A stretch of 64,000 nt of DNA from Saksenaea vasiformis B4078 (taxonomy: Eukaryota; Mucoromycota; Mucoromycetes; Mucorales; Saksenaeaceae). The notes beneath the pieces were generated by a model that saw only the letters and a list, made by a program, of their open reading frames with translations, had not been told where the DNA came from and ran no database searches. Every line of letters begins with the position of its first letter. Position 1 is the first letter of the stretch. Below are positions 1-61,669 of this stretch, one piece after another. Made by a program: the position numbers and the translations under genes. The stretch covers positions 248,001 through 312,000 of the forward strand of contig JNDT01002355.1 of NCBI GenBank assembly GCA_000697055.1. The letters run 5' to 3'.

Positions 1-1410
1 GCTTTGTCGATGTTTTTCTTTTCATCTCTGTAAATATCTCCGAGTCTCCGTTGCACATATTTATCTCCTTGATCCGCTGCTTTTTGATACCATTCGATTG
101 TTTTGTCGATGTCTTTCTTTTCATCTCTGTAAATATCTCCAAGTTGGATTTGAGCATCTATATTTCCTTTATCAGCCACTTTTTGAAACCATTCGATTGC
201 CTTGTCAATGTCTTGCTTCACTTCTCTTCCCTGATGGTACATCCTTCCAAGCGTGTATTGCGCATGTTCATTTCCTTGATTCGCCGCTTTTTTGTACCAC
301 TCAAGTGCTTGGTCAATGTCTTTCTTCATGTCCCATTCCGTTATGTAAATATATCCGAGTTCGATTTGAGGCCTTTCACTTCTTTGATCTGCTGCTTTTT
401 GGTACCATTCAATTGCCTTTTTCGTGTCTTTCATCACTCCATGTCCCAAACGGTACATGTCTCCAAGCGTGTATTGCGCATCTTTATCTCCTTGATCCGC
501 CGCTTTTTGGTACCATTCATACGCCTTTTTCTTTCTGTCTTGATTTACGCCTAACCCATGGTGGTATACTTCTTTAAGTTTAGTTTGCACATCAGCATTT
601 CTTTGGTCCGATGCCTTGATGTAGACTTTATCCATACCTATTCCGCAGTAATGCTTCTCGCCAAGATTGAACTGCTCCCATTTGTCGTTCCAATCGATTG
701 GATCTTTGTACAGGCTAATACCCTTTTTGTTACCTTTGCCCACACCATCTTCATGACTCTGTATTTTCACGTCCATCTTGCGCATCTTCATCTTTGTGAT
801 CATCTGCTTTTTGTATTATGCTAATATAGTTAACATTGGTGTCATTTTCAGCATCCTCGTCGTTCGACAGGCTTCCTTCATGTCTGTTTTGTCGATTGGC
901 TGCTTTTGTTCCCAGATTGGATTCTTGTTGATCTCTATGCAAGCGGCCTTCGCAGCTGAGTGGACTATTGGAATCGCTCGATTTCTCTCCACTTTCTCGG
1001 TTAGCAACTTCGCGTTGTATGCCAATATCGCTGGGACTACTGTCACCATCAGAATCGCCAAATATATCTTTTTCAGGTTGGTTTTGCAAGTTGTCATGTC
1101 CATTGTCTATGGCTCTGTTGTTGTCTTGATCCAGAACTTGCAACCGACTCATGTCTTCAACATCGTGTTCCATACTTTCATGGCTTCTGGCACACTGTTT
1201 GGATACTTCAGCGGGATTCTCTTCCGCTGCATGCTCAAGTTCATTATCAGAAAATGCTTTGTCATAAACCCCCTCCACTTGTAGACGTTTATCGTTCTCA
1301 AGGACGCTATAAATCGGCTTAAAATCTTTGACCCGTATAGTGGCTGGGTTTGATATTGTAATTTCCAGTTTCCTAATCCATCCAGGAAAAATAACTCGGA
1401 TTCATATTCT
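1..1410 (-). pseudogene. Sel1-repeat protein, truncated tandem paralogue A (runs off left edge)
   Basis: On the minus strand an open frame from about 1,410 carries the family hinge (WIRKLE, then KPIYSVLE) and an acidic Ser/Asp-rich linker, and closes at a TGA at 751-753. Another frame then carries about seven Sel1 repeats (EWYQKAADQG, LGDIYRDEK type) to base 1, so the C-terminus lies outside the window. Beside the related copy at 63,371-64,000, two bases appear to be missing close to the TGA, which suggests a frameshift. No MACPF-like exons lie upstream: the hinge abuts the last repeats of paralogue B. Sel1 repeats are helical protein-binding scaffolds; the role here is unknown. A sequencing error cannot be excluded. 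Confidence 0.7.
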
Positions 1411-4050
1411 TGCGCTGCACCTTTCCAAGTCGAGACGCATCGCCAACGCGATTCTGCGCCTCAGCATCGTTCTGTTCAGCTGCTTTCTTGAAACAATCAA
1501 CGGATTGATCGTAATCCCTTTCAACGCCTCCCTCATCTCGATATGCACATCCGACTCTCCTTTGGGCATAGCTGTGGTTCTGTGCTGCAGATTTCTTATA
1601 CCATTCGAATGCCTTGGTATAGTCTTGAATAACACCGTTACCAGCTTTGTAGGCATCACCAATACAAGCCTGTGCTTCAGCGTCGTTTTTCTCAGCTGCT
1701 TTTTGGAACGATCTGAATGATTCAGCAGAGTTCTGCTCAACGCCTTCGCCATTGCGGTATACACAGCCAACACCATGTCTGAGCGTACACGTAGTCTTGA
1801 CGCGCCGATTTGCTATACCAGTCGAAAGCTTTGATGTAATCTCGCTGCACACCCTGTCCTGCTCTATATGCATCACCAATACAAGCTTGTGCCTCCGCAT
1901 CGTTCTGTTCTGCTGCTTTTTTAAACCACCCAAATGACTGCGCGTAGTCCTGACTGACGCCTTCTACATCTCTATAAGCGCACCCAAGCTTTCTTTGAGC
2001 ATAAGCATTGTTCTTTTCTGCCGGCTCCTTGTACCATTCAAAGGCAGCCTTGTAATCTTCCTTGCTACGGTCTCTGGCTATATACACGTCGCCAAAACGT
2101 GCTTGCACTTCAGCATCGTTTCTTTTAGCCGCTTTTTGGAACCAGTCGAACGATTGTCCAAGGTCCTTTTCAACGCCTTTGTCGTCTCTGTAGGCATGGT
2201 CCAGCCACGTCTGTGCGTAAGCATATCCCTGACGAGCGTACTTTTTGTACCAGTCGAATGCTTGCTTATGATCTGATTCTACACCCAGTCCTGCTCTGTA
2301 AGTGTCGGCAATAGATGCCTGTGCTTCTGCATCATTTTGTTCCGCCGCTTTTGTGAACCACTCGAATGACTGTGCATAATCCTGACTGACTCCTTCGCCA
2401 TCTCGATATGCGCATCCAACTCTTCTTTGTGCATAGCTATGATTCTGTTTGGCCGAACTTCTGTACCATTCGAACGCTTTTTCGTAATCCTGACTTATGC
2501 CATTTCCACTTCGGTACGCGTCACCAACGCATGCTTGCACCTCAGCATCATTTTGCTTCGCTGCTCCTTGGAACCACTTGAATGATTCTGCATAAGCTTG
2601 ACTGAAGCCTTCTCAGTCCCTATATGCATATCCAACTTTTTCTTGTGTGTAGATTTGTTTCTGATTTGCCGAACCATGTTTGTTTTCTAGATTAGCTGCT
2701 TTTGAGTCCAGATTGACGACTTGCGGATCTCCATGCAAACTGCCTTGATGGCTGGGTAGATCATTGGAATCATTTGGTGTGTCTCCACTTTCTCGGTTAA
2801 TAACTTCGTGTTGTATGCTAGTATCGTTGGTATTACTATCATCATCAGGATCTTTACCGAATATATCCTTTTCCAGTCCGCTTTGCAAGCTTTCATGCCT
2901 ATTGTCTATGACTTTGTTGCTGCCTTGGTCCAAAAGTTGCAGTCTCCTCATAGCTTCAACTTTGTCTCCCGTACATTCATTGCTTTTGCCAAACTTTTTG
3001 GAAAATTCAGCGGGGTCCTCTTTGACCGGATACCCACGCTGGTTATCCGGAAATGCTCTGTCATAGATCTCCTCCACTTTAAGCTGTTCATTATCTTCAA
3101 GGATGTTATATATAGGCTTCAAGTCTTTGAACTGAGTAATGGCTGGTTCGGACGTAGTAGACTCTTTCAGCTTCCTAATCCATCCAAGAAAAATAATCCA
3201 GGATCACCACCTACCACAAATTTATCCAGCAACTATCGCGTATATGTGATGAAGATTACCTATGATCTTGTAACCTTTGATTACATCCGGGCGTCATCTA
3301 CTATCTGACGGATGGACCGGATTTTGTTACATTCAGTCTCCAGTTCACGCCCCTTCCTGTTCTTCATCTTCGGACTCTCTTTCTTACGAGCAAGTAGGCC
3401 ACCTGAACCAGGGAGATAGTTAGATAATGTTACACGTGCAGTAATCATTATACCAAGCAAGATTTTGGACGGATAATAGTATCCAAACCGCTCAAACACA
3501 GTTTGCAGGGCTCTATACTTCGTGTTATCGGTGCCTTCCTTCAAAGCATCTTGTACAGCTTTCCTGAAACGGTCCGTTGCTTTGAGATATTCCGAAGACA
3601 GTTGTACCTGTAGGAGTCCTATGAATTGAACCATCGGTAAACGTCTGTTCAGTCACTTACTTCTCCCCAAAAAACGTAAGAAATGGTGTATTCAGCTGAG
3701 CCCCTTCCAGATGACCGTTGCTCTTGCTTATGTGCAATGCAACTAGCTTCAGCAGCAATGTCGTAAGGACACGTTTTAGACGGTAAGTGGTGGAAGCTGC
3801 CATCTATTAGTAACTTATTCATGAAAGTATCCGTGTCGATGGTCCTCGTGCACGTATATTCCACAAATGGTTTGTCATAGGAATACTTATGAAGAAGTCT
3901 GAGCATATTATGCTTTCCCCCTTCAACGTCTATTGCAGAGTACTCGGCGGCGTATCCATCAAAATGGATGCCTCGTGTGCAACGACTGGCAACGTCATAC
4001 GTCAAAAATTGATTGAACTGTGAAATGTCTGATAAACACATAGAAGACAT
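1373..4050 (-). pseudogene. MACPF-like/Sel1-repeat gene, broken paralogue B
   Basis: The ATG is at 4,048-4,050. Exon 1 (3,661-4,050) has the family GIHFDG motif. Intron 3,608-3,660 leads to exon 2 (3,454-3,607), which ends in FGYYYPSKILLG. A 51-base intron (3,403-3,453) then rebuilds LGG. Exon 3 (3,260-3,402) is 143 bases against 144 in the intact paralogue D, so it shifts frame and meets a stop. The hinge after 3,210 also differs by one base from its paralogue. About twelve Sel1 repeats follow, interrupted by an in-frame TGA at 2,613-2,615 inside a YRDGEG motif and by an extra base near 1,775 that moves the rest into another frame ending at 1,373. Four separate lesions make this a likely pseudogene. 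The MACPF-like call rests on motif spacing (FGxxY, six residues, GG). Confidence 0.75.
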
Positions 4051-4439: not shown

Positions 4440-6960
4440 TTATCTTAATCGGTTGTTCATCCTTTTCTTTTTAAAATCATCGAAGTCCTGATATGGTTGC
4501 ATAATATCCTCCCTCAGCTGATTCTTGGTATCTTTCAATTCCCACTGTATTACTCGTCTTGTTCGTCGTCTCTTTAAATACAACCAAGCCTCATGTGTGT
4601 GCATATCTATGTTTGATTTGCCGTTTTTCTGATACCATTCCATTGCTTTGCGCTTGTCTTTCTTTTCATATTTGTAAATATCGCCAACATCGAGTTGTGC
4701 ATATACATTCCCTTGATCAGCCGCTTTTTGATACCATTCAATTGCTTTATCGATATCTTTCGTGTAACGACTGTAAATAGCATCAAGTGTCATTTGCGCA
4801 TCTTCACTTCCTTGATCCGCCGCTTTCTCGTACCATTCAATTGCTTTATCCGTGTCGTGTTTTTTATGTTCGTAAATGTCACCGAGTCTTATCTCCGCGT
4901 CTTCGCTTCCTTGATCCGCCGCTTTCTGGTACCATGCAATCGCTTTGTCGATATCTTTCGTGTAATCTCTGTAAATATCACCAAGCCTTATTTCCGCATC
5001 TTCATTTCCTTGGGCCGACGCTTTCTGGTACCATTCAATTACTTTACTGTAATCTTTAACCACGCCTCGTCCATATTCGTTCATAATTGCAAGCTTGGTT
5101 TGCGCATCGCCATTTCCTTTATCTGCTGCAAGCTTGCACCATTCAAGCGCTCTGGAGTACAACTCTTCCGCCTTCTCCTTGTCTCTCCGCACGAACCATC
5201 CAATAGAATACATCACCCCAAGGTTGTGTTGCCCAATGCCGTGTCCCTGATCAGCTGCTTTTCGGTACCATTTGAATGCCTTCATGCCATCTACATGCAC
5301 GCCTCGTCCGTGATAGTACATATCGCCCAGTTTTGCCTGCGCATCCCCATTTCCCTGCTCCGCTGCCATTTCGTACCATTCAGCTGCTTTCTTGCTGTCC
5401 CGAGCTACACCTCGTCCGTATCTGTGCATATCTCTAAGTCTGGTCTGCGCATCGCTGTTTCCCTGATTCGCCGCTTTTCTGAACCATTCGTACGCTTTAA
5501 CGTAGTCTTTATCCATATCAATTCCATGGTAGTATTTCTTGCCGAGTCTAAAGTGCTCCTGTTCATCTTTTCTATTGAATGCATCATCGTAGACACCAGT
5601 ATCCTTGTGATAATCTTCGGTCGCATCACTCTCATCGTTGTATGCATTCTCCGGTTCGTTTCGCGCAGTTTCCTGCCAATCATCGATTGCTCTGTCGATG
5701 ACTTGACTCAAGTCAAATCGGCTATGACTCATGCCTTCAGGTTCGCTTTGATCTGTTCCGTTTCCGCAATCGGCTGCTTCATAATCCATTTAACCTGTAA
5801 CTCGCAACTGCCAATCCGCGCCATCACGCTTACCTTGCGTATCTTCATTCTTTTCCCTGCATTCTTTGGCAATCGTGACATTGTTGTTTTCTAGTTCATT
5901 TCGAAAATAGCCGTTAGAATACGCCTTCTCGTAAACCTGCTCCGTCTGAAGGCGTTCATCACTATCGAGGATATCATATAGCCGCTTCACCGTTCTGAGC
6001 TGGATGATTGCTGGTCTGGACTTGGTGGACTCTTCCCACTTTTTTGTTCCATCCACGAAATATAGACCGGGAACACCACCTATCACAGGTTTTGTCTAGT
6101 AACTGCCGCAGATAGGTGATGAAAATTTACCTATTACTTGGTAATCTTTGATTTCATCCCTAAATTCTTCTGCTGTCGAATGGCCCGACTGAATTGCCGT
6201 ATGTTCAAATCACCAATTTTGCACTCTGTTTCCGCTTTGTACCTTTCTACTTACTTTCGCATAAATGAACACGTAATCCATACCACTCTCTTTTGTACGA
6301 GCAAGAAGGCCACCTATCAAGGTCAAGTTAAATAATGCTACACATCTATGGATCACAGTACCGAGAAAGATCTCTGAAGTGTAGTAGTAGTATCCAAATC
6401 TTCCGAAAACGGACTGCAAAGCCTCATACTTCTTCTTATCGGTGTTTTCGTTCAAAGCGCTTTGCACAGACTCCCTGAAACTGACAGTTGCTTTGACAGA
6501 GTTGGAACATAGGCGGGCCTAAGATGAAACATTGGGTCATCCATAAAAAGATCTGCCTGATATCTTACGTTTCCCCGAGGAAACGCGATAAAAGGGATAT
6601 TCAACCAAGTGCCTTCCAAACTTCTGTTGGCTCTGTTTACATCCGCTGCAACTATCTTGAGCAGCACCATCATATGCGCATGTCTTAGACATCGAACGAG
6701 GACAGTTGTCAACCAATAGTGATCCATCCATGCAAGCATCAGCCTTGATGGTCACACAAACATACTCCTCGAATGGCTTATCACAGGAATATTCGTCGAG
6801 GAGTCTAAGAACGTCGTCCTTCCTCTCTCCAACGTCTATTGCAGAGTACTCTGCAGTGGATCCGTCATGATGAAGACCTCGTGCGCACTGGTTGACAAGA
6901 TCATGCCCAAAAAATTGAGTGAATTATCAAAAATGTCTGATAAATGCACGTAGAAGACAT
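4440..6960 (-). pseudogene. MACPF-like/Sel1-repeat gene, broken paralogue C
   Basis: The ATG is at 6,958-6,960. The layout matches paralogue B: first exon with GLHHDG, then a GYYYY-type exon, a short intron that rebuilds LGGLLART, an IGG hinge near 6,086, and Sel1 repeats to 4,440. There are several lesions: an extra T in a T-run near 6,915, a one-base difference at the first donor near 6,570, an in-frame TGA at 6,210-6,212 and a TAA at 5,790-5,792. The last 449 codons (4,440-5,789) are uninterrupted and hold about nine Sel1 repeats (DKAIEWYQKAADQG type), so a truncated Sel1-only protein starting at the ATG at 5,787-5,789 is possible. The partial repair of motifs by splicing supports descent from a functional gene. 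Confidence 0.72.
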
Positions 6961-7131
6961 GTGCTTTTTCTGTTACATCAGATGGTACTGCCTGTTTTTC
7001 GATGTAGCAAGTCATTAAAAGCGAAGAAAGGGAAGTTACAGCGTTTGTCCTCCTTTTATCGAAAGGAGCATTCGTAATTACACTATTTGAATTTTTAAGG
7101 TTTATGCTGAGTCGATACAAGACATCAGGAG
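6961..7131 (-). promoter_or_regulatory. Copied upstream segment, copy 2 (paralogue C)
   Basis: This segment aligns by eye with the segment upstream of paralogue B, including CCTTTTATCGAAAGG, GAGCATTCGTAAT and a TTTATGCTGAGTCGAT stretch, up to the ATG at 6,960. Confidence 0.55.
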
Positions 7132-8369: not shown

Positions 8370-10811
8370 TCACAATCTCTTATTTCGCCTTATCGAACCG
8401 TACAAAATTGCGAGTTTCTTTTTCGCTTCTTTCATTCCCTGATTGAGAGCCCGTTGGTACCAATACGATGCTTTATAGTTGTCCTTATTTACATATTCAC
8501 CGCTGTAATATATGTCACCAAGTTTCAGTGAAGCCGCGCCATCCTGTTGATTCGCCGCTTTTTTTAACCAAGTAATTGCCTCGTCCGGGTCTTTGTTCAC
8601 ATCAGTACCTTTCAGGTACATGTCTGCAAGTTTCTTTTGAGCCACTTTGTTTCCTTGTTCCGCCGCTTTTCGCAAGCAAGAAACTGCCTTGTTTGCGTCT
8701 CTATCCACGTCGTTACCGTTCCCGTATACATTTGCAATTTTTTTTTGAGCCTCCGTGTCCCCTTGATCTGCCGCTTTTCGGTACTGTTCAAGCGCTTTGT
8801 CGATGTCCTGGTCCACGCCAATTGCATCTCTGTATGCATTTCCAAGTTTCTTTTGCGCTCCCGCGTGTCCTCCGTTGGATGCCACTTCGTAGTATTTTAT
8901 TGCTTCTTTGACATCCATAGCTATGCCTCTTCCGTATCTGTAAAACGTTGCGATCTCGTGGCAGAGCTGTGGATCTTTCTGGTCTCTGACCCTTTTGTAC
9001 CATTCGGATGCTCTTTTCACATCTTTTGCGACGACATTTCCCAGCCTGTATATATCACCAACCTCCTTGCACGCTCGGCTATGCCCTTGATAGCCAGCTT
9101 TTTGGTACCACGATAAAGCAAGAGAATGGTCCTGCTTGACCCCTATGCCGCGTTTGTACATGAAACCAACACGGTATTGTGCTTCGACATCGTTCAGGTT
9201 GGCGGCTCTCTTGTACCATTCAAATGACTTGATGGGATCTTTGTCCACAAATTGACCTGCGTTGTACATGGACCCAAGTTTATACTGCGCTCGGGCATGA
9301 TCCTGGTTCGCCGCGCTTTGAAACCATTCGGACGCGTCGGTGTAGCTCTGCTCTACACCTTGTCCGGACAAGTACATCTTGCCCAGACGATACTGTGCAT
9401 CGGCATGGTGTTGAACAGCCGCTTGATAAAACCATTTGAATGCTTCGGATAGATCCTCACTGTCTTCATACATACGTCCCAGGTAATACTGGGCGCTACT
9501 GTCGTACTTTTCTGCTGCTTTGAAGAACCATGAGTATGCTTTCTCGTCGTCCTTGTCCACGCCTATGCCATTCATATACATGACACCAAGTTTGGTTTGT
9601 GCCGTTGCGTCGTTATGAACCTCGGCCTGCAGCAGGCATTCACAGGCATCGATATGGTCCTGGTCGCACCCGAACCCATTTGCGTACATAATGAATAATC
9701 TGTGCTGCAAGGCAGGTTCACAAGAAAAGGATATGGTTACATAGTTTCTCATCACGTCGCTATCCTCATGGCTTATGTAATTCATCTTGAAATACTGCTC
9801 TCGAAAACGTTTCTTCATGATATCCTTTATTGTGTCCTCCACGGCGTTCCTCAGATCATCCGGTAGCAGGAAATAGGTTGGGACGAATTCCTTGCGTTTG
9901 ATAACCACGGGATTTGACGAAACGGATTCTATCCATCGGTCGATCCTTGGCTCGTACGAAGATCCGATGGAAACGTCATAGGAATTAAATAGAAGGGATG
10001 GATCACCTCCTAGTGGTAGTTAGTATCCTACTATTCATACTTGTAATAAGCTCGTTTCCTTACCAATCACGTCGTATTGCTGACCACTGCTAATAGCATG
10101 TTCAATCGCGCGTTTGACTTTCTCGGTCTCATTGTCCAACGGTCCATCGTGAATTGACAGCCATGTTCTTTCAAAAAGAGCATTCCATTCAACTTTAACG
10201 CTTCCACCTACGTACAGTTTGTGAGAATCAGCCTCCGCCTGCTGTCAAGGTATATTACCGAGAACTATTTTCATGGGATAAAAATACCCATATCTTTCAA
10301 AAATTTCCTGTAGAGCACCGGATCTCTCTTCATCAGAAGAAAAGTTTAGAGCACGTTCGACGTCGGTTCTAAACGATGTAGCTGCCGATACGTTCCCGTC
10401 AAGAGAAAGCTAGTATAGATGCTGTTTATTGCGACACGTTTCACTGTACACTTCACTCACCTCATAGCATGATGCGTACAACGACAGCTTACTGAATCCG
10501 GGCTCGCCACTTAGTCCAATTTCTTGCCCCAGCCGAAACGAAGCATCAAACGTCGTATCGCTACATAGTGCCCTCGTACGGTCACTTCCTTCGTGATCTA
10601 CTTCAGTTTTGGGGCGGAGATGTTGGAAAATGAACGACGCCTCTTCTTCGAGACCATCCTCCGCATCAGCGTGCTCTGAGGTGTAGCTGTGGTTCAGCAT
10701 GTCAGCTACAATTGAGTCCGTTGTTTGACCATCGAGCTTGATTCCTCTGTTCCAGGAACCACCTAGCGCTCTCATTACTTGTACTGGTAAAAGAGCATCA
10801 GGCAGCGTCAT
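8370..10811 (-). CDS. MACPF-like domain/Sel1-repeat protein, intact paralogue D
   Basis: Exons 10,461-10,811, 10,259-10,409, 10,064-10,207 and 8,370-10,009 join in frame through GT-AG introns of 51, 51 and 54 bases and give about 761 residues. Residues 1-245 form the MACPF-like module: RGIKLDG near 22, YGYFYP near 158, LGG at about 167 (codon split by intron 2) and VIGGD near 216 (split by intron 3), followed by WIESV. This fits the MACPF spacing YGxxY, six residues, GG, but the usual Thr-His is replaced. Residues about 311-750 hold about twelve Sel1 repeats (SEWFQSAANQ, LGKMYLSGQGV type). No signal peptide or membrane helix is seen. The start is the first ATG in an open exon. Pore formation is not shown; the module may be a scaffold or recognition unit. 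It is the only undamaged member of the left array. Confidence 0.8.
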
Positions 10812-56558: not shown

Positions 56559-59500
56559 TCATCGACCTGCCAGATTTTGGAACGCAGCAGCTTTTTCAAG
56601 GTCACGCTTCACTGCAACTCCATTTTTATAACACTCTGCTATTGCTCGCGGTACCACATCCATTTCTGACTCGACGAGGCCCATCAAGATGTCAAACCCG
56701 AGATACTGGTCGCTCGTCGGACCACACCATTTTTTCAGATGATATACAGCCACCATCAGCTTCGCATGTGGATCAAATAGAGCGATCGATTCAAATAATT
56801 GGTATGCCTCCTGCCGCAGCTCCTTTTCTTCGGAAGGTGTTTTCGACAGGCCCGCCAAACGGTGTTTGAGCTTTGCGATAGCCAGCTTTGCAGGTGTATC
56901 TCTCCCAAGCTGGTCCTTAGGTCCAGTAAAATATTTCAGAGCATGTTCATACCATCTCAAAGCCTTTGTGTAATTGACACCAAGTTCTTCATGATATCCT
57001 CCTTCATAATATTCACCTATTATCAGAGCTGCTGTTGCATTCGATTGTATTGCGGCGACAAAATCATGTAGGTAGGCTATTTTTCGGTTTTGTGGGATAA
57101 CGTATGGGTTGTCTGGGTCCGCTGACAAGAATCCTGAACGATAGAGGTCGCCTAACATCTGACGAGAGTTACGTTCTAATAGACGCGCTTCTTCTTCAAA
57201 TATCTGCACTGCTTCCTGATACTCCTTTATGTCCCATAGATGCTTCCCAAGTATATAGCCAGCGTTCTTATCCTTTCCCCTCGCTTTTCTCAGATATTCC
57301 ACGGCCACTGACTCATTGAAGGTAACTCCTCCTGTGCCATTCAGTGATTTGCATCCAAACAAATACTGGCTGGTTGCATCGCCGTTGTCGGCGCGTTCTT
57401 TTAAGGCAAGGGGATCATATGTATTCTTCATACTGGAGCGAATTCTTCCTGCGAATCTATACTCAAGGCGCCACCGGGCTGTACGAAGCGTATCTTTAGT
57501 GTTACAGTTTGCGACTATTCCGATCATATTTTCGGCGCAGCTACGTCTGATGTCCTTTTCGAAGTCGAAACCTAGATAGACTCTTTTATCGCCATCCACC
57601 GTTGCTATACTTTCAAAAACTATCGTGTCATCTAAGTGAGCATATCCGGAATCGATTGTTTGTAATGCTCCCTCATTCGTATCGTCGCTACACGGGAAGC
57701 AGCTTATAATTTTCCTACCAGCTTGTAAGTATATCTGATCATGTGGGGTTGACAACTAACCATTGGCAGTTAAGCCTGGAGTTTTCGAGTTCGAGACTCC
57801 TTTGCCTATGCGACTCATCGTTTAACAGTCGACTGACGAGTATGTCTTTGGCGCTTGAGGTGACGCCGTTCTTGAGACGAACTGTGTCACCATATTTCAC
57901 ATATCTTTTGTCCTGATTTTCTGCACCGTACGCAGCAGATTCGTTATAGAGTGTAATAGATAGACAATACCTCTTTTCAGGCGATGGTGCTTTATCGTGC
58001 GATAAGTCATTCTCTCCTATAAGTTTGTGATTGTGTTCTGATTCTTCGAGATTTGCAAATTTACAAAACTTCCATCTTGCAGCGTCGTCTTCAAGCAGCA
58101 TAATACCCCATTGGCAAGGATTTTTTGGAGTCGCTTTGGGAGACGGTTTTTGAGAACTTTCTTTCGATAAACCGCGATGAGAACAGTAAATACATATCAT
58201 CTGCGTTGCATTAAGCGACTAATTCGTATTTTTACGCTTTGTCTTACATGATTCGTTATCTCTTCTTTTATAATCGTAAACCCGTAGTCCATACAAGCAT
58301 TACTGCAATACTTTATTGCAGTGTCGCTATCCGAAAACTCCTTCGTCAACAGATCTTCGAACAACGCATCCGTCTATAAACAGGTATTCTAGAAAGTCGA
58401 TCTTTAAACCTCTCTGTACCTACGGGTGTATTGATTCCTGGCGGTGCCGAACCTTCTCCACTTGTGGATGGTGGGCCACACGGCATTAACGCATATGGGT
58501 ACTCATATATTAAACGCTCTTCGGCTGCGACTACATAGTCGAGAGTTCCTATTATCTTCTGCTGCTGGTCTTTATCTAGCAGCCGGTAGATTGGCTTTAG
58601 TTCTTTCAATTGAATAACAGCTGGATTGGAAGCAATTGTATCCACCCATCTATCAACATCGTTCCAAAGCAGTAACTGCGATTCTCCACCTTGTATATAC
58701 CACGCATCTGTTAGTGTAATTGAAGAATGTATCTTTCTACCCACCCACAGCGTCCCAGTATCTACTCTTCTGTAATGCCTTCTCCAGGTCTGTGGTGACT
58801 ACTCTCTTGGCAAGTTCCCTCCCGGCAGTAGCTACGGTACCGCTTTCCTCTAGCTCGCTACTCCACTGGTCGTGCTGTTCTGAGAAAGGCAGCTTGTATG
58901 AGACCTTGTGGCCAGCTTTTGCAAGGGAAACATTTTTGAATGCTTCGTCTTGCATTTCTTGCTCCTTTTCCTCATCTTTGATAGATGCTTCATACATAAC
59001 TCTACCGCCTGAACATTGTCTTAGCTTATCAGGCACGTTTCGAGTTAAGTATATTACCAAGTTGCACGACGGTAGGATAATAATAACCGTATTGCTGAAA
59101 AACATCTTGTAATGCACTGTACGTGTCGAAGTCCATGTTTCCCACTTGCAATGCTCTGTTTATAGATTCTCTATATTCAGCAGTTGGTCGTACGAGATCA
59201 TCATACAAATTCAACTATACTTATGTTTCAGCCTTTTCCGTTATTTTTCTGGTGCTGTAGAGATCCTACCTCCATGGACGTTAGATAAACGACACGACAT
59301 TCAACATTTGGTGCGGAAAACTGAGAGGGTTTAGCGATGCACCGTTTGTTATATGCCCCGATGGCGCTTTCGGTAAATCCTGTTCCTCCTGGTAATTGGG
59401 TAACCGTATCGACATCAAATAATGCATGCTTTACTATAATGGTTGAGTCGGATACAGTTCGTTCTGGACGTTCAATATCAAGGCCCTCTGGGAACTTTCT

Positions 59501-61669
59501 AAGCATAATCGTTTTAGAAATTATATCATGCTTGCTTAGTTCCAGAGCCTGACTATTCGCCTCAACTCCATCAAAATGTATTCCTTGAACTAACTGAGGG
59601 AATTCGACCATAAGACCTTCGTTTTTGCTGTATAGCCTTTTGATCTCCAAACTCTGTTCGTCAGCAAGAAGCTCATACGTTGGCTTCAATGACTTAAACT
59701 GAATACGCTGTTGATTTCTTTGCGTGGACTGAATCCACTCTTCGTACTTTGTGAATGAGTGACCTCCTTCACAACAAAAGCTTGTGAATACGACTTGGGA
59801 TTTCAATAATAAGGGTATTCATACCGGTTATCTCCAAATGCTTAGATGTCATACTAAATATCTTTCCAATAGCACGCACGGGATTGTTTATCATCCAACT
59901 CTCTGGAGGACCACTCGGACCAATTGTATATATCATTCTCCCGCCTATAAAGGATCATATTAATCTGACTGTAATGACAATATAAAAAGAAAGAAAAGTA
60001 AAGCAAGTCTCTACCAAGAGCGATAACAGAAGGGTAGTAGTATCCGAAGCAACCAAACACTTTCTGTAAGCATTTGTACTTTTCTGTATCAGATCCGATT
60101 TTCAACGCCTTATCGACCGCTTCTTTGAATTTTTCGGTTCCTTTGATAAATTTTCGATCAAGCACAAGCTACCATATGTACGTTAGTTAACTTTTGGATG
60201 TTTGCTCATCATAATAACAGGCGTAATTTTGGTAGTTGAGAAAGGATTTTGATTTTGGGTTGTGTGCAGCTTACCTCTCTATGAGTTAAGTACACCACGT
60301 AGTACCTACATTCTCGTGTTGAAGACTGCAATCTACCGCCATTTTTGTATAGGTGGTGTGATATGGCACCCCGCAAAAACCCAACATCGTCCACAGACGT
60401 TTCAGACAGTTCGGTGTGAAGAAACGCATGTGCGTCACTGGTGGCTCCTAGCATTTTTTCGCGTACCTCGCATTCTATTAATGGATCATCTCCAATGGAC
60501 ACCAGTCGCAGTAAGTGACAGATATCACTTTTGTCAATTAGCTCGACGGTCATCTCGTCGGATAAGGATCCATCGACATGGACACCCTTAGCTATGCCCG
60601 TTTGCTGCATCCTAGTGGAATGAATAAGGCTATTTTGCATTTCAGAAGGGCCTATAAGAGCGTCTACGGGGTGGCCAAACGATTCAGGAGGGTAACCAAC
60701 TAAAGGCTGCATCTGGTTACGTTGCAGATATTGCGTTTTGTATATACGTTGAATCTCTGCGCTGCATATGTCGTCCAAAAGATCATATATCGGGTTTACA
60801 TCAAGTAACTTAACGGAAAGCTCGGAGTTGGATGTACTTTTCAGCCAACCTTCAAGATCATGATTGTCATATAATAAATTCGTGTCTCCCCCTAAATATC
60901 CGTATCATTAATGCTTGGGTTAAGTCAGGTGGCATAGCATACCAAAAGCTTCCCAATGGAGATCGTCATTAAGAACTGTTTGGAAAGTGTTATATATGCC
61001 GACGCTTGTATCAGGTGTAGACTGGTCGTATCGAAACTTCCCCCCTGCCCATATGCTTTAATGATATACCAACAATACTGGTACTAACCTGTTATTATCC
61101 AGTATGGATAATAGTAGCCGTATTCCTTAAAAATATTCTCTAATGCCATGAATTTTTCACGATCATCAGGTGCCTGGATTGCTTTATCGACCGCCTCTTC
61201 AAAATCTTTAGTTGTTTGAACAGCAGTGGGTGGAATAAACACCTATTTGAAGCAGTTATTGCTGGACTTCTTCATACTTATTTGCAATACTAACGTATCG
61301 TCTGTATATATCATAACCTCTTTCTTGCTCCCGATGCTCTTTCAATACAGCATTTTCGGCGGCGGCGTTAAAGGGAGGTATTCCAGGGAGTGGAGTCTTG
61401 ATGTATGATCCTATATTGCCTGAACTCACAAACCTAATCGACTCTGGAATTGGGATAGCTCGATCTGGATATGCGTAGATACGCTGGCCGTGCTTTAACT
61501 CGGCTGCCTGCTTGGTAGCTGGTCGAGCTTTAGCATCGACTCCACGTACCCAGCTTGGGAATGTATTTGTGCTTAGCTTTCAAAGGATTGTTACTAAAAC
61601 GCAGGGCTCGTTGCAGATGTTCCTCACAGAAAATATGTAATCTTCCAAATGTACTTGTGGTTTTCTCAT
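56559..61669 (-). CDS. Triple MACPF-like/FAR1-finger/beta-trefoil/Sel1-repeat protein
   Basis: Fourteen exons (61,628-61,669, 61,295-61,576, 61,089-61,242, 60,943-61,044, 60,275-60,891, 60,015-60,168, 59,825-59,944, 59,270-59,766, 59,058-59,214, 58,745-59,008, 58,424-58,689, 58,248-58,373, 57,761-58,200 and 56,559-57,714) close in phase and give about 1,458 residues with no internal stop. Three MACPF-like modules: motifs RGVDAKA, KGVHVDG and QGIHFDG; GYYYP then GG near 150, 441 and 699; FGGD, TGGH and VGGE near 193, 490 and 796, each followed by a W and a PIYDLL, PTYELL or PIYRLL stretch. Residues about 890-985 look like a FAR1/WRKY-GCM1 finger (C930, C956 and HNH 983-985). Residues about 995-1120 resemble a MIR/beta-trefoil (VKYGDTVRLKN). 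Divergent Sel1 repeats run to the end. Exon 1 is the weakest; function unknown. Confidence 0.75.

Follow-up and report, generated by a model that had tools for sequence, protein, structure and literature searches.

A predicted Saksenaea vasiformis gene with three MACPF modules, a putative FAR1-like finger and a likely Sel1-type solenoid, and its MACPF-Sel1 relatives

Introduction

MACPF proteins are usually encountered as pore formers with a single unit that work from outside the cell, and pleurotolysin B acts from outside together with an aegerolysin. Pleurotolysin B (Pleurotus ostreatus; PDB 4ov8, 9do8) has a single MACPF unit and neither a finger nor a Sel1 part. Here we describe a predicted gene of Saksenaea vasiformis B4078, termed W, in which three MACPF modules are joined to a putative zinc finger and a likely Sel1-type solenoid. 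W was read from positions 56559..61669 (minus strand) of a 64,000-nucleotide stretch (the window), which is contig JNDT01002355.1 (C623 in our numbering), positions 248001-312000. The genome searched was the 38.7 Mb assembly of this strain (GCA_000697055.1; 666 contigs).

Fungal immune sensor proteins combine an effector end with a repeat end, and pore-forming executioners have also been described, according to two reviews (PMC10197012, PMC12881547). The same reviews state that a subset of the sensor ends of fungal NOD-like receptors (NLRs) has very highly conserved internal repeats (PMC10197012), and that the known fungal pore-forming executioners are abundant particularly in Ascomycota (PMC12881547). 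The word MACPF is absent from the main text of PMC10197012, PMC12881547 and PMC9815663; perforin, MACPF and Sel1 are likewise absent from the main text of a mucormycosis genome survey (PMC4961843) and of the report on the A. variabilis genome (PMC5604411). A literature search, with subscription papers and preprints outside its scope, found no report combining MACPF with Sel1. Among the matches listed for tandem fungal MACPF, none concerned W-like proteins by title; those listed for MACPF and fungal allorecognition concern animals, MACPF and Mucoromycota led to a mushroom, and the sole match for Apophysomyces and MACPF concerns salt-tolerant endophytes. Those listed for Mucorales with perforin or Sel1 dealt mostly with mucormycosis.

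Results

MACPF modules of W

A sequence-only reading of the window had proposed three head-to-tail MACPF-like modules, and this proposal was borne out. Pattern search revealed the signature [YF]G-Y-Y-Y-x6-GG at residues 149, 440 (FGYYYPSVIALGG, module 2) and 698 of W. The canonical MACPF signature is Y/W-G-T/S-H-F/Y-x6-G-G; the W modules retain its spacing and the GG, whereas the T/S-H pair is replaced by Y-Y. Three copies of the strict signature were present in 11 of 21 proteins examined, including W, and fewer in the others, partly as a result of incomplete models. When the whole spliced protein was scanned against Pfam, MACPF (PF01823) scored 66 bits (E 7e-18; cut-off 21.5) and MACPF_1 (PF22693) 63 bits (cut-off 27.5). 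Scanned singly, modules 2 and 3 were above the MACPF cut-off (28.5 and 40.3 bits), and module 1 was under both (MACPF_1, 22.9 bits; MACPF, 16.9 bits). HH profile comparison matched module 1 to the other two W modules at 99.7 and 99.9%, and module 2 to the other two at 99.7 and 100%. These findings indicate that the three modules are homologous to one another and of MACPF/perforin type.

A predicted structure, which had been suggested as a check for a non-MACPF fold, was analysed for the Apophysomyces homologue P0010. Modules 1 and 3 of this model were similar in fold to pleurotolysin B, followed by perforin, C9 and MPEG1, consistent with a MACPF/CDC fold. Module 2 was poorly modelled in P0010, and its assignment therefore rests on hidden Markov model (HMM) and HH evidence.

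Gene model and conservation

The W introns are 44-106 nucleotides long and GT-AG throughout, and the spliced frame encodes 1,458 amino acids followed by a stop at 56559, in agreement with the 14 exons and ~1,458 codons without an internal stop counted originally. The model was checked with a splice-site and codon-usage program whose codon scores had been derived from open stretches within W itself, so that its answer is not independent. At all three penalty settings the program returned an identical ATG and stop, with 21, 14 and 13 exons, respectively. In its 14-exon answer two acceptors were placed differently, giving 1,426 amino acids; these acceptors were shifted manually to agree with the closest paralogue, L009, to give the 1,458-residue model. 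The shift in exon count from 13 to 21 with gene-finder settings would fit an artefact in which at least two adjacent genes were fused by the sequence-only reading and the splice model. However, the order of parts is identical in 7 of the 16 loci fetched from the genome, and in Apophysomyces proteins that were annotated separately and are about as long as W, and such a fusion is very improbable. Because the order recurs in this way, W appears to be a real, conserved fungal gene and no chance assembly of open frames.

The seven loci that keep three modules, finger region and Sel1 in the order of W are L009, L011, L013, L014, L015, L016 and L018. L022 has one module plus Sel1, and L019, L020, L021, L023 and L024 match in the Sel1 part only; the stretch L028, which ends at a contig end, was left out of the analysis. 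Damaged or contig-edge copies of the triple type were also observed: L012 (C117:59800-69700) holds the C-terminal part only, with stops, L017 (C230:20700-30600) is partial with frame damage, and L010 (C98:1-4600) is partial, its match starting 358 bases from the contig end. The triple-module family may undergo loss as well as gain of members.

The ratio of nonsynonymous to synonymous substitution rates (dN/dS) between W and L009 was 0.174 overall and 0.135-0.289 across six regions; these ratios are rough because dS was 1.2-2.1, near saturation. Purifying selection was observed in all six W regions tested, and the overall value of ~0.17 upholds the earlier suggestion that selection has kept the gene intact.

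Protein search with W yielded one match, Apophysomyces protein P0001, which aligns over 99% of W with 33% identity. A search with P0001 yielded twelve Apophysomyces family members (P0001-P0012) and P0013 from Mucor velutinosus, which has Sel1 and TPR domains and no MACPF; the C-terminal half of P0001 yielded one partial Apophysomyces protein. MACPF and MACPF_1 were matched by all twelve Apophysomyces proteins. These carry automatic names without function ("MACPF-like domain-containing" or hypothetical; DFQ28_002564, EC973_002405 and others). Their complete models share the order of W, whereas models P0008, P0010 and P0012 are incomplete and P0011 has no finger. Thus, the W architecture is that of a subfamily: it is not unique to W and occurs also in Apophysomyces. 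It was found only in this genus (Mucorales) by searches that require shared exact words, a requirement that leaves room for other genera. P0007 (Apophysomyces ossiformis EC973_003364) has ~440 extra residues ahead of its first MACPF module, which represent either an additional domain or an adjacent gene fused to it.

In a tree of 20 proteins, W, L009, L013 and L011 formed a fully supported clade drawn from the source genome only, and L014, L016 and L018 grouped with Apophysomyces proteins. The latter grouping suggests that the triple-module type probably arose before the Saksenaea and Apophysomyces lineages separated. The W clade is either an expansion in the source genome or a set that was lost from, or escaped detection in, the Apophysomyces data searched.

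FAR1-like finger

The zinc ligands of FAR1 are C-C-H-x-H. In the finger alignment A5, C50, C73, H100 and H102 were invariant across 14 rows. Of 20 proteins, 18 carry the pattern C.W...H[NS]H; A5 comprises 14 of them, with L015, P0002, P0005 and P0008 omitted, and the invariance applies to these chosen rows, since L015 and P0008 are without the first Cys. FAR1 (PF03101) matched the W finger alone at E 2e-4 (22.5 bits, under the Pfam cut-off of 28.1), exon 13 at E 9.4e-4 and the whole protein at 0.011, the last two also below cut-off; 9 of the 14 aligned members matched FAR1 at E up to 1. The FAR1-type finger of the sequence-only reading thus stood as regards its conserved C-C-H-H ligands and fell short in score. 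Rival zinc-binding families scored alike (BIR in 2 of 14, best E 2e-4; IBR in W at 0.0017), which makes the family label insecure, and the best match of the finger profile to PDB sequences was at E 1.1. The FAR1 label is plausible on this evidence.

In FAR1/MULE-type factors the finger targets DNA. W might accordingly be a nuclear protein whose finger targets DNA and whose MACPF modules are passengers, as the invariant ligands of the 14 aligned members and the nine FAR1 matches would allow. This is improbable: the finger is under the Pfam cut-off, with BIR and IBR scoring alike, and inspection of the protein models by eye showed that P0011 without a finger, and P0008 and L015 without the first Cys, still have their MACPF modules. 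Genome-wide, FAR1-type fingers were seen at 11 other places, six of them above the Pfam cut-off, and none was near a listed MACPF core.

C-terminal parts of W

The 180-residue region after the finger contains two half-repeats of type Y-h-+-x-G-D-h...W in the aligned rows (alignment A4, 7 of the 9 segments cut out). It had been read as a beta-trefoil/MIR-like part; this was not sustained, as neither W nor the 7 aligned segments matched a MIR or trefoil family in Pfam, and the best match of the region's profile to PDB sequences was at E 0.26. Pfam gave isolated weak matches only for the 7 segments, the best being AIM3_BBC1_C at 0.0047 (one segment) and POT1PC at 0.011 (W).

The C-terminal part has the character of an alpha/alpha solenoid and is likely of Sel1 type, which supports the Sel1 repeats recognised earlier. 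Sel1 (PF08238) scored 23.3 bits in W, below the cut-off of 30.7, and 38.5 bits in paralogue L014; 11 of the 12 Apophysomyces homologues matched it at E 0.01. The Sel1 exon of W had 25 matches in the genome. Hence, among the HMM searches proposed for W, MACPF was above its cut-off, FAR1 and Sel1 were below theirs, and MIR gave no match.

W showed neither a hydrophobic N-terminus nor a clear membrane helix (maximum 19-residue mean hydropathy, 1.13). W is probably cytosolic, since the finger and the Sel1 solenoid fit an intracellular protein. The closest solved relatives of the MACPF part, in sequence and in fold, are pleurotolysin B chains, as would be expected if W were a weapon released against competitors, predators or hosts in the manner of that protein, through non-classical export or cell lysis. 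We consider this fairly unlikely, because W is without a signal-like N-terminus and its finger and solenoid suggest an intracellular protein.

MACPF-Sel1 family in the genome

Each of two exon-sized queries gave at least 150 matches in the genome (the best 150 of one at E 5.2e-7 or better), and a genome search with PF22693 gave 61 matches, 9 above cut-off. Merging of the exon queries (E 0.01) with the PF22693 search (E 0.001) placed MACPF module cores at at least 190 sites on 106 contigs, a count that includes two likely double counts, weak matches to E 0.0023 and some cores with stops; the cleaner list holds at least ~188 cores. Distance grouping of the 190 cores gave 163 solitary cores, 3 pairs and 7 triplets. 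More surprising than the architecture of W is how large the MACPF-Sel1 family is.

The association with Sel1 was analysed from the other side in a set of 90 distinct open reading frames (ORFs) behind the best 150 of 3,284 candidate Sel1 matches. A MACPF core lay within 6 kb upstream on the same strand in 62 of the 90, downstream in 14 and on the other strand in 2. Six single-module loci (three in the window, L025-L027) were read with the gene finder, and all continue into Sel1 arrays, with 7-11 units per gene, mean identities between units of 32-48% and closest pairs of 44-85%. Pfam analysis of three single-module proteins showed strong Sel1 matches in all three; MACPF was above the cut-offs in one, MACPF_1 was below its cut-off in another, and the third had no MACPF match at E 0.001. 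FAR1 was not found in any of the three at E 0.001. These genes share the module core and the C-terminal Sel1 array with W; however, they have one module and well recognisable Sel1 units, whereas W has three modules and degenerate Sel1.

The leftmost part of the window holds a cluster of three minus-strand cores (3458-3601, 6381-6500 and 10266-10394), and every one of them is followed by a Sel1 array (Table 1). The 736-residue protein predicted at 4440..7015 had no MACPF match at E 0.001. Tandem repeats in the window DNA at 51-519 and 4626-5047 have periods of 99-108 bp, which correspond to Sel1 units of 33-36 residues. The contig as a whole carries at least twenty MACPF cores, six of them within ~138-157 kb and one at 313,681, just past the window. 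Rfam and tRNA scans of the window gave 0 hits.

Table 1. Coordinates of W, its parts and the neighbouring MACPF-Sel1 genes in the window
Feature	Position	Strand	Details
W, whole gene	56559..61669	-	14 exons, 1,458 codons; gene model, colinear paralogues, Apophysomyces homologues
W exons 1-5	61669-61628, 61576-61295, 61242-61089, 61044-60943, 60891-60275	-	
W exons 6-10	60168-60015, 59944-59825, 59766-59270, 59214-59058, 59008-58745	-	
W exons 11-14	58689-58424, 58373-58248, 58200-57761, 57714-56559	-	
MACPF module 1	60677..61561	-	~residues 20-265; span includes introns
MACPF module 2	59648..60676	-	~residues 266-530; span includes introns; signature, HMM, HH comparison
MACPF module 3	58499..59647	-	~residues 531-860; span includes introns; 86-residue charged segment past signature
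Putative FAR1-like C-C-H-H finger	58021..58373	-	~residues 886-987; spans exon 12 and the beginning of exon 13
Region of unassigned fold	57435..58020	-	~residues 988-1167; alignment of 7 sequences; trefoil/MIR part of the sequence-only reading
Likely Sel1-type alpha/alpha solenoid and stop	56559..57434	-	~residues 1168-1458
Single-module MACPF-Sel1 gene	8370..10811	-	761 amino acids predicted; Sel1 2e-84; MACPF_1 28.3 bits (cut-off 27.5); MACPF 23.8 bits (cut-off 21.5)
Single-module MACPF-Sel1 gene	4440..7015	-	736 amino acids predicted, 5' end uncertain; core 6381-6500; Sel1 1.3e-65
MACPF-Sel1 gene or two model-joined genes, uncertain	313..4041	-	core 3458-3601; predicted exons; Sel1 units

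Discussion

By analogy with fungal immune sensors, we take MACPF as the membrane-directed part of these proteins and Sel1 as the sensing part. W may then be a cytosolic, membrane-directed effector in which Sel1 serves for sensing or docking, and the MACPF-Sel1 family may be a sensor-plus-executioner repertoire. We favour this proposal, and with it a recognition or defence role as suggested in the sequence-only reading, tentatively and with less than even confidence. The Sel1 end, with the finger, would bind a partner or a non-self cue, and before binding the two would keep the MACPF units inactive. Upon binding, W chains would gather, and their covalently linked MACPF units would line up within an arc or ring on one of the cell's own membranes, which would be damaged or marked. 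The expanded family would serve as a repertoire functionally like the fungal NLR and gasdermin systems, and unrelated to them.

Several observations weigh against this proposal. In MACPF units, two clusters of helices can convert into membrane hairpins, one of which is expected after the signature. The segments after the signature in W are hydrophilic. With 32 and 38 residues they are short in the first two modules, and that of module 3 is long (86 residues) yet 35% charged, which makes membrane insertion doubtful. On the sensing side, the triple-module proteins have a degenerate Sel1 part, with 1 recognisable unit each in 4 of 4 examined, and this part is therefore not itself a fast-evolving sensor. 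The Sel1 arrays of the single-module genes are only moderately uniform (32-48% mean identity), 28 of the 90 Sel1 ORFs have no upstream MACPF core, and diversifying selection was not seen at the level of whole-region dN/dS between W and L009. L015, P0003 and P0005 hold a stretch with mean hydropathy above 1.6, always in the C-terminal solenoid. Finally, neither an NB-ARC or NACHT (NLR) domain nor a gasdermin N-terminal domain was found in W by Pfam at E 0.1, and 5,027 anti-phage models gave 0 matches for three homologues.

Alternatively, the MACPF fold may persist as a rigid unit for oligomerisation or binding in a non-lytic scaffold, in which Sel1 and the finger assemble complexes and no pores are made. 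This explanation is doubtful in itself, and we rate it nearly as likely as the membrane-directed effector. The modules, however, retain the signature spacing and the GG and have pore formers as their best matches, and so large a family would be unusual for a housekeeping scaffold.

A stronger version of the sensor-plus-executioner proposal is that MACPF-Sel1 proteins constitute a so far undescribed intracellular recognition-and-execution repertoire of one Mucorales lineage, with MACPF in the role that gasdermins and HeLo domains play in Ascomycota, and with the triple-module proteins as conserved hubs and covalent trimers. We regard this version as unlikely. If the triple-module proteins were such hubs, four of their chains could complete a ring of twelve units, or they could seed mixed rings with single-module partners.

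The interest of W lies in the linkage of three MACPF units within one conserved protein that is probably intracellular, in a 38.7 Mb genome that holds at least ~188 module cores. As a natural covalent trimer, W lends itself to the study of MACPF ring assembly, and its family would allow a test of whether early-diverging fungi own a sensor-executioner system.

Fungal NLRs and gasdermin-like proteins pair sensor repeats with membrane-attacking proteins in large families, as described in the two reviews (PMC10197012, PMC12881547), and MACPF-Sel1 would resemble them in this respect. The likeness of the single-module Sel1 arrays, with their 32-48% mean identity, to the very highly conserved repeats described for a subset of NLRs in PMC10197012 is only partial. 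W differs from the NLRs and gasdermins in having no Pfam match to a nucleotide-binding or gasdermin domain. It is a known kind of MACPF protein in a new arrangement of three modules, a finger and Sel1.

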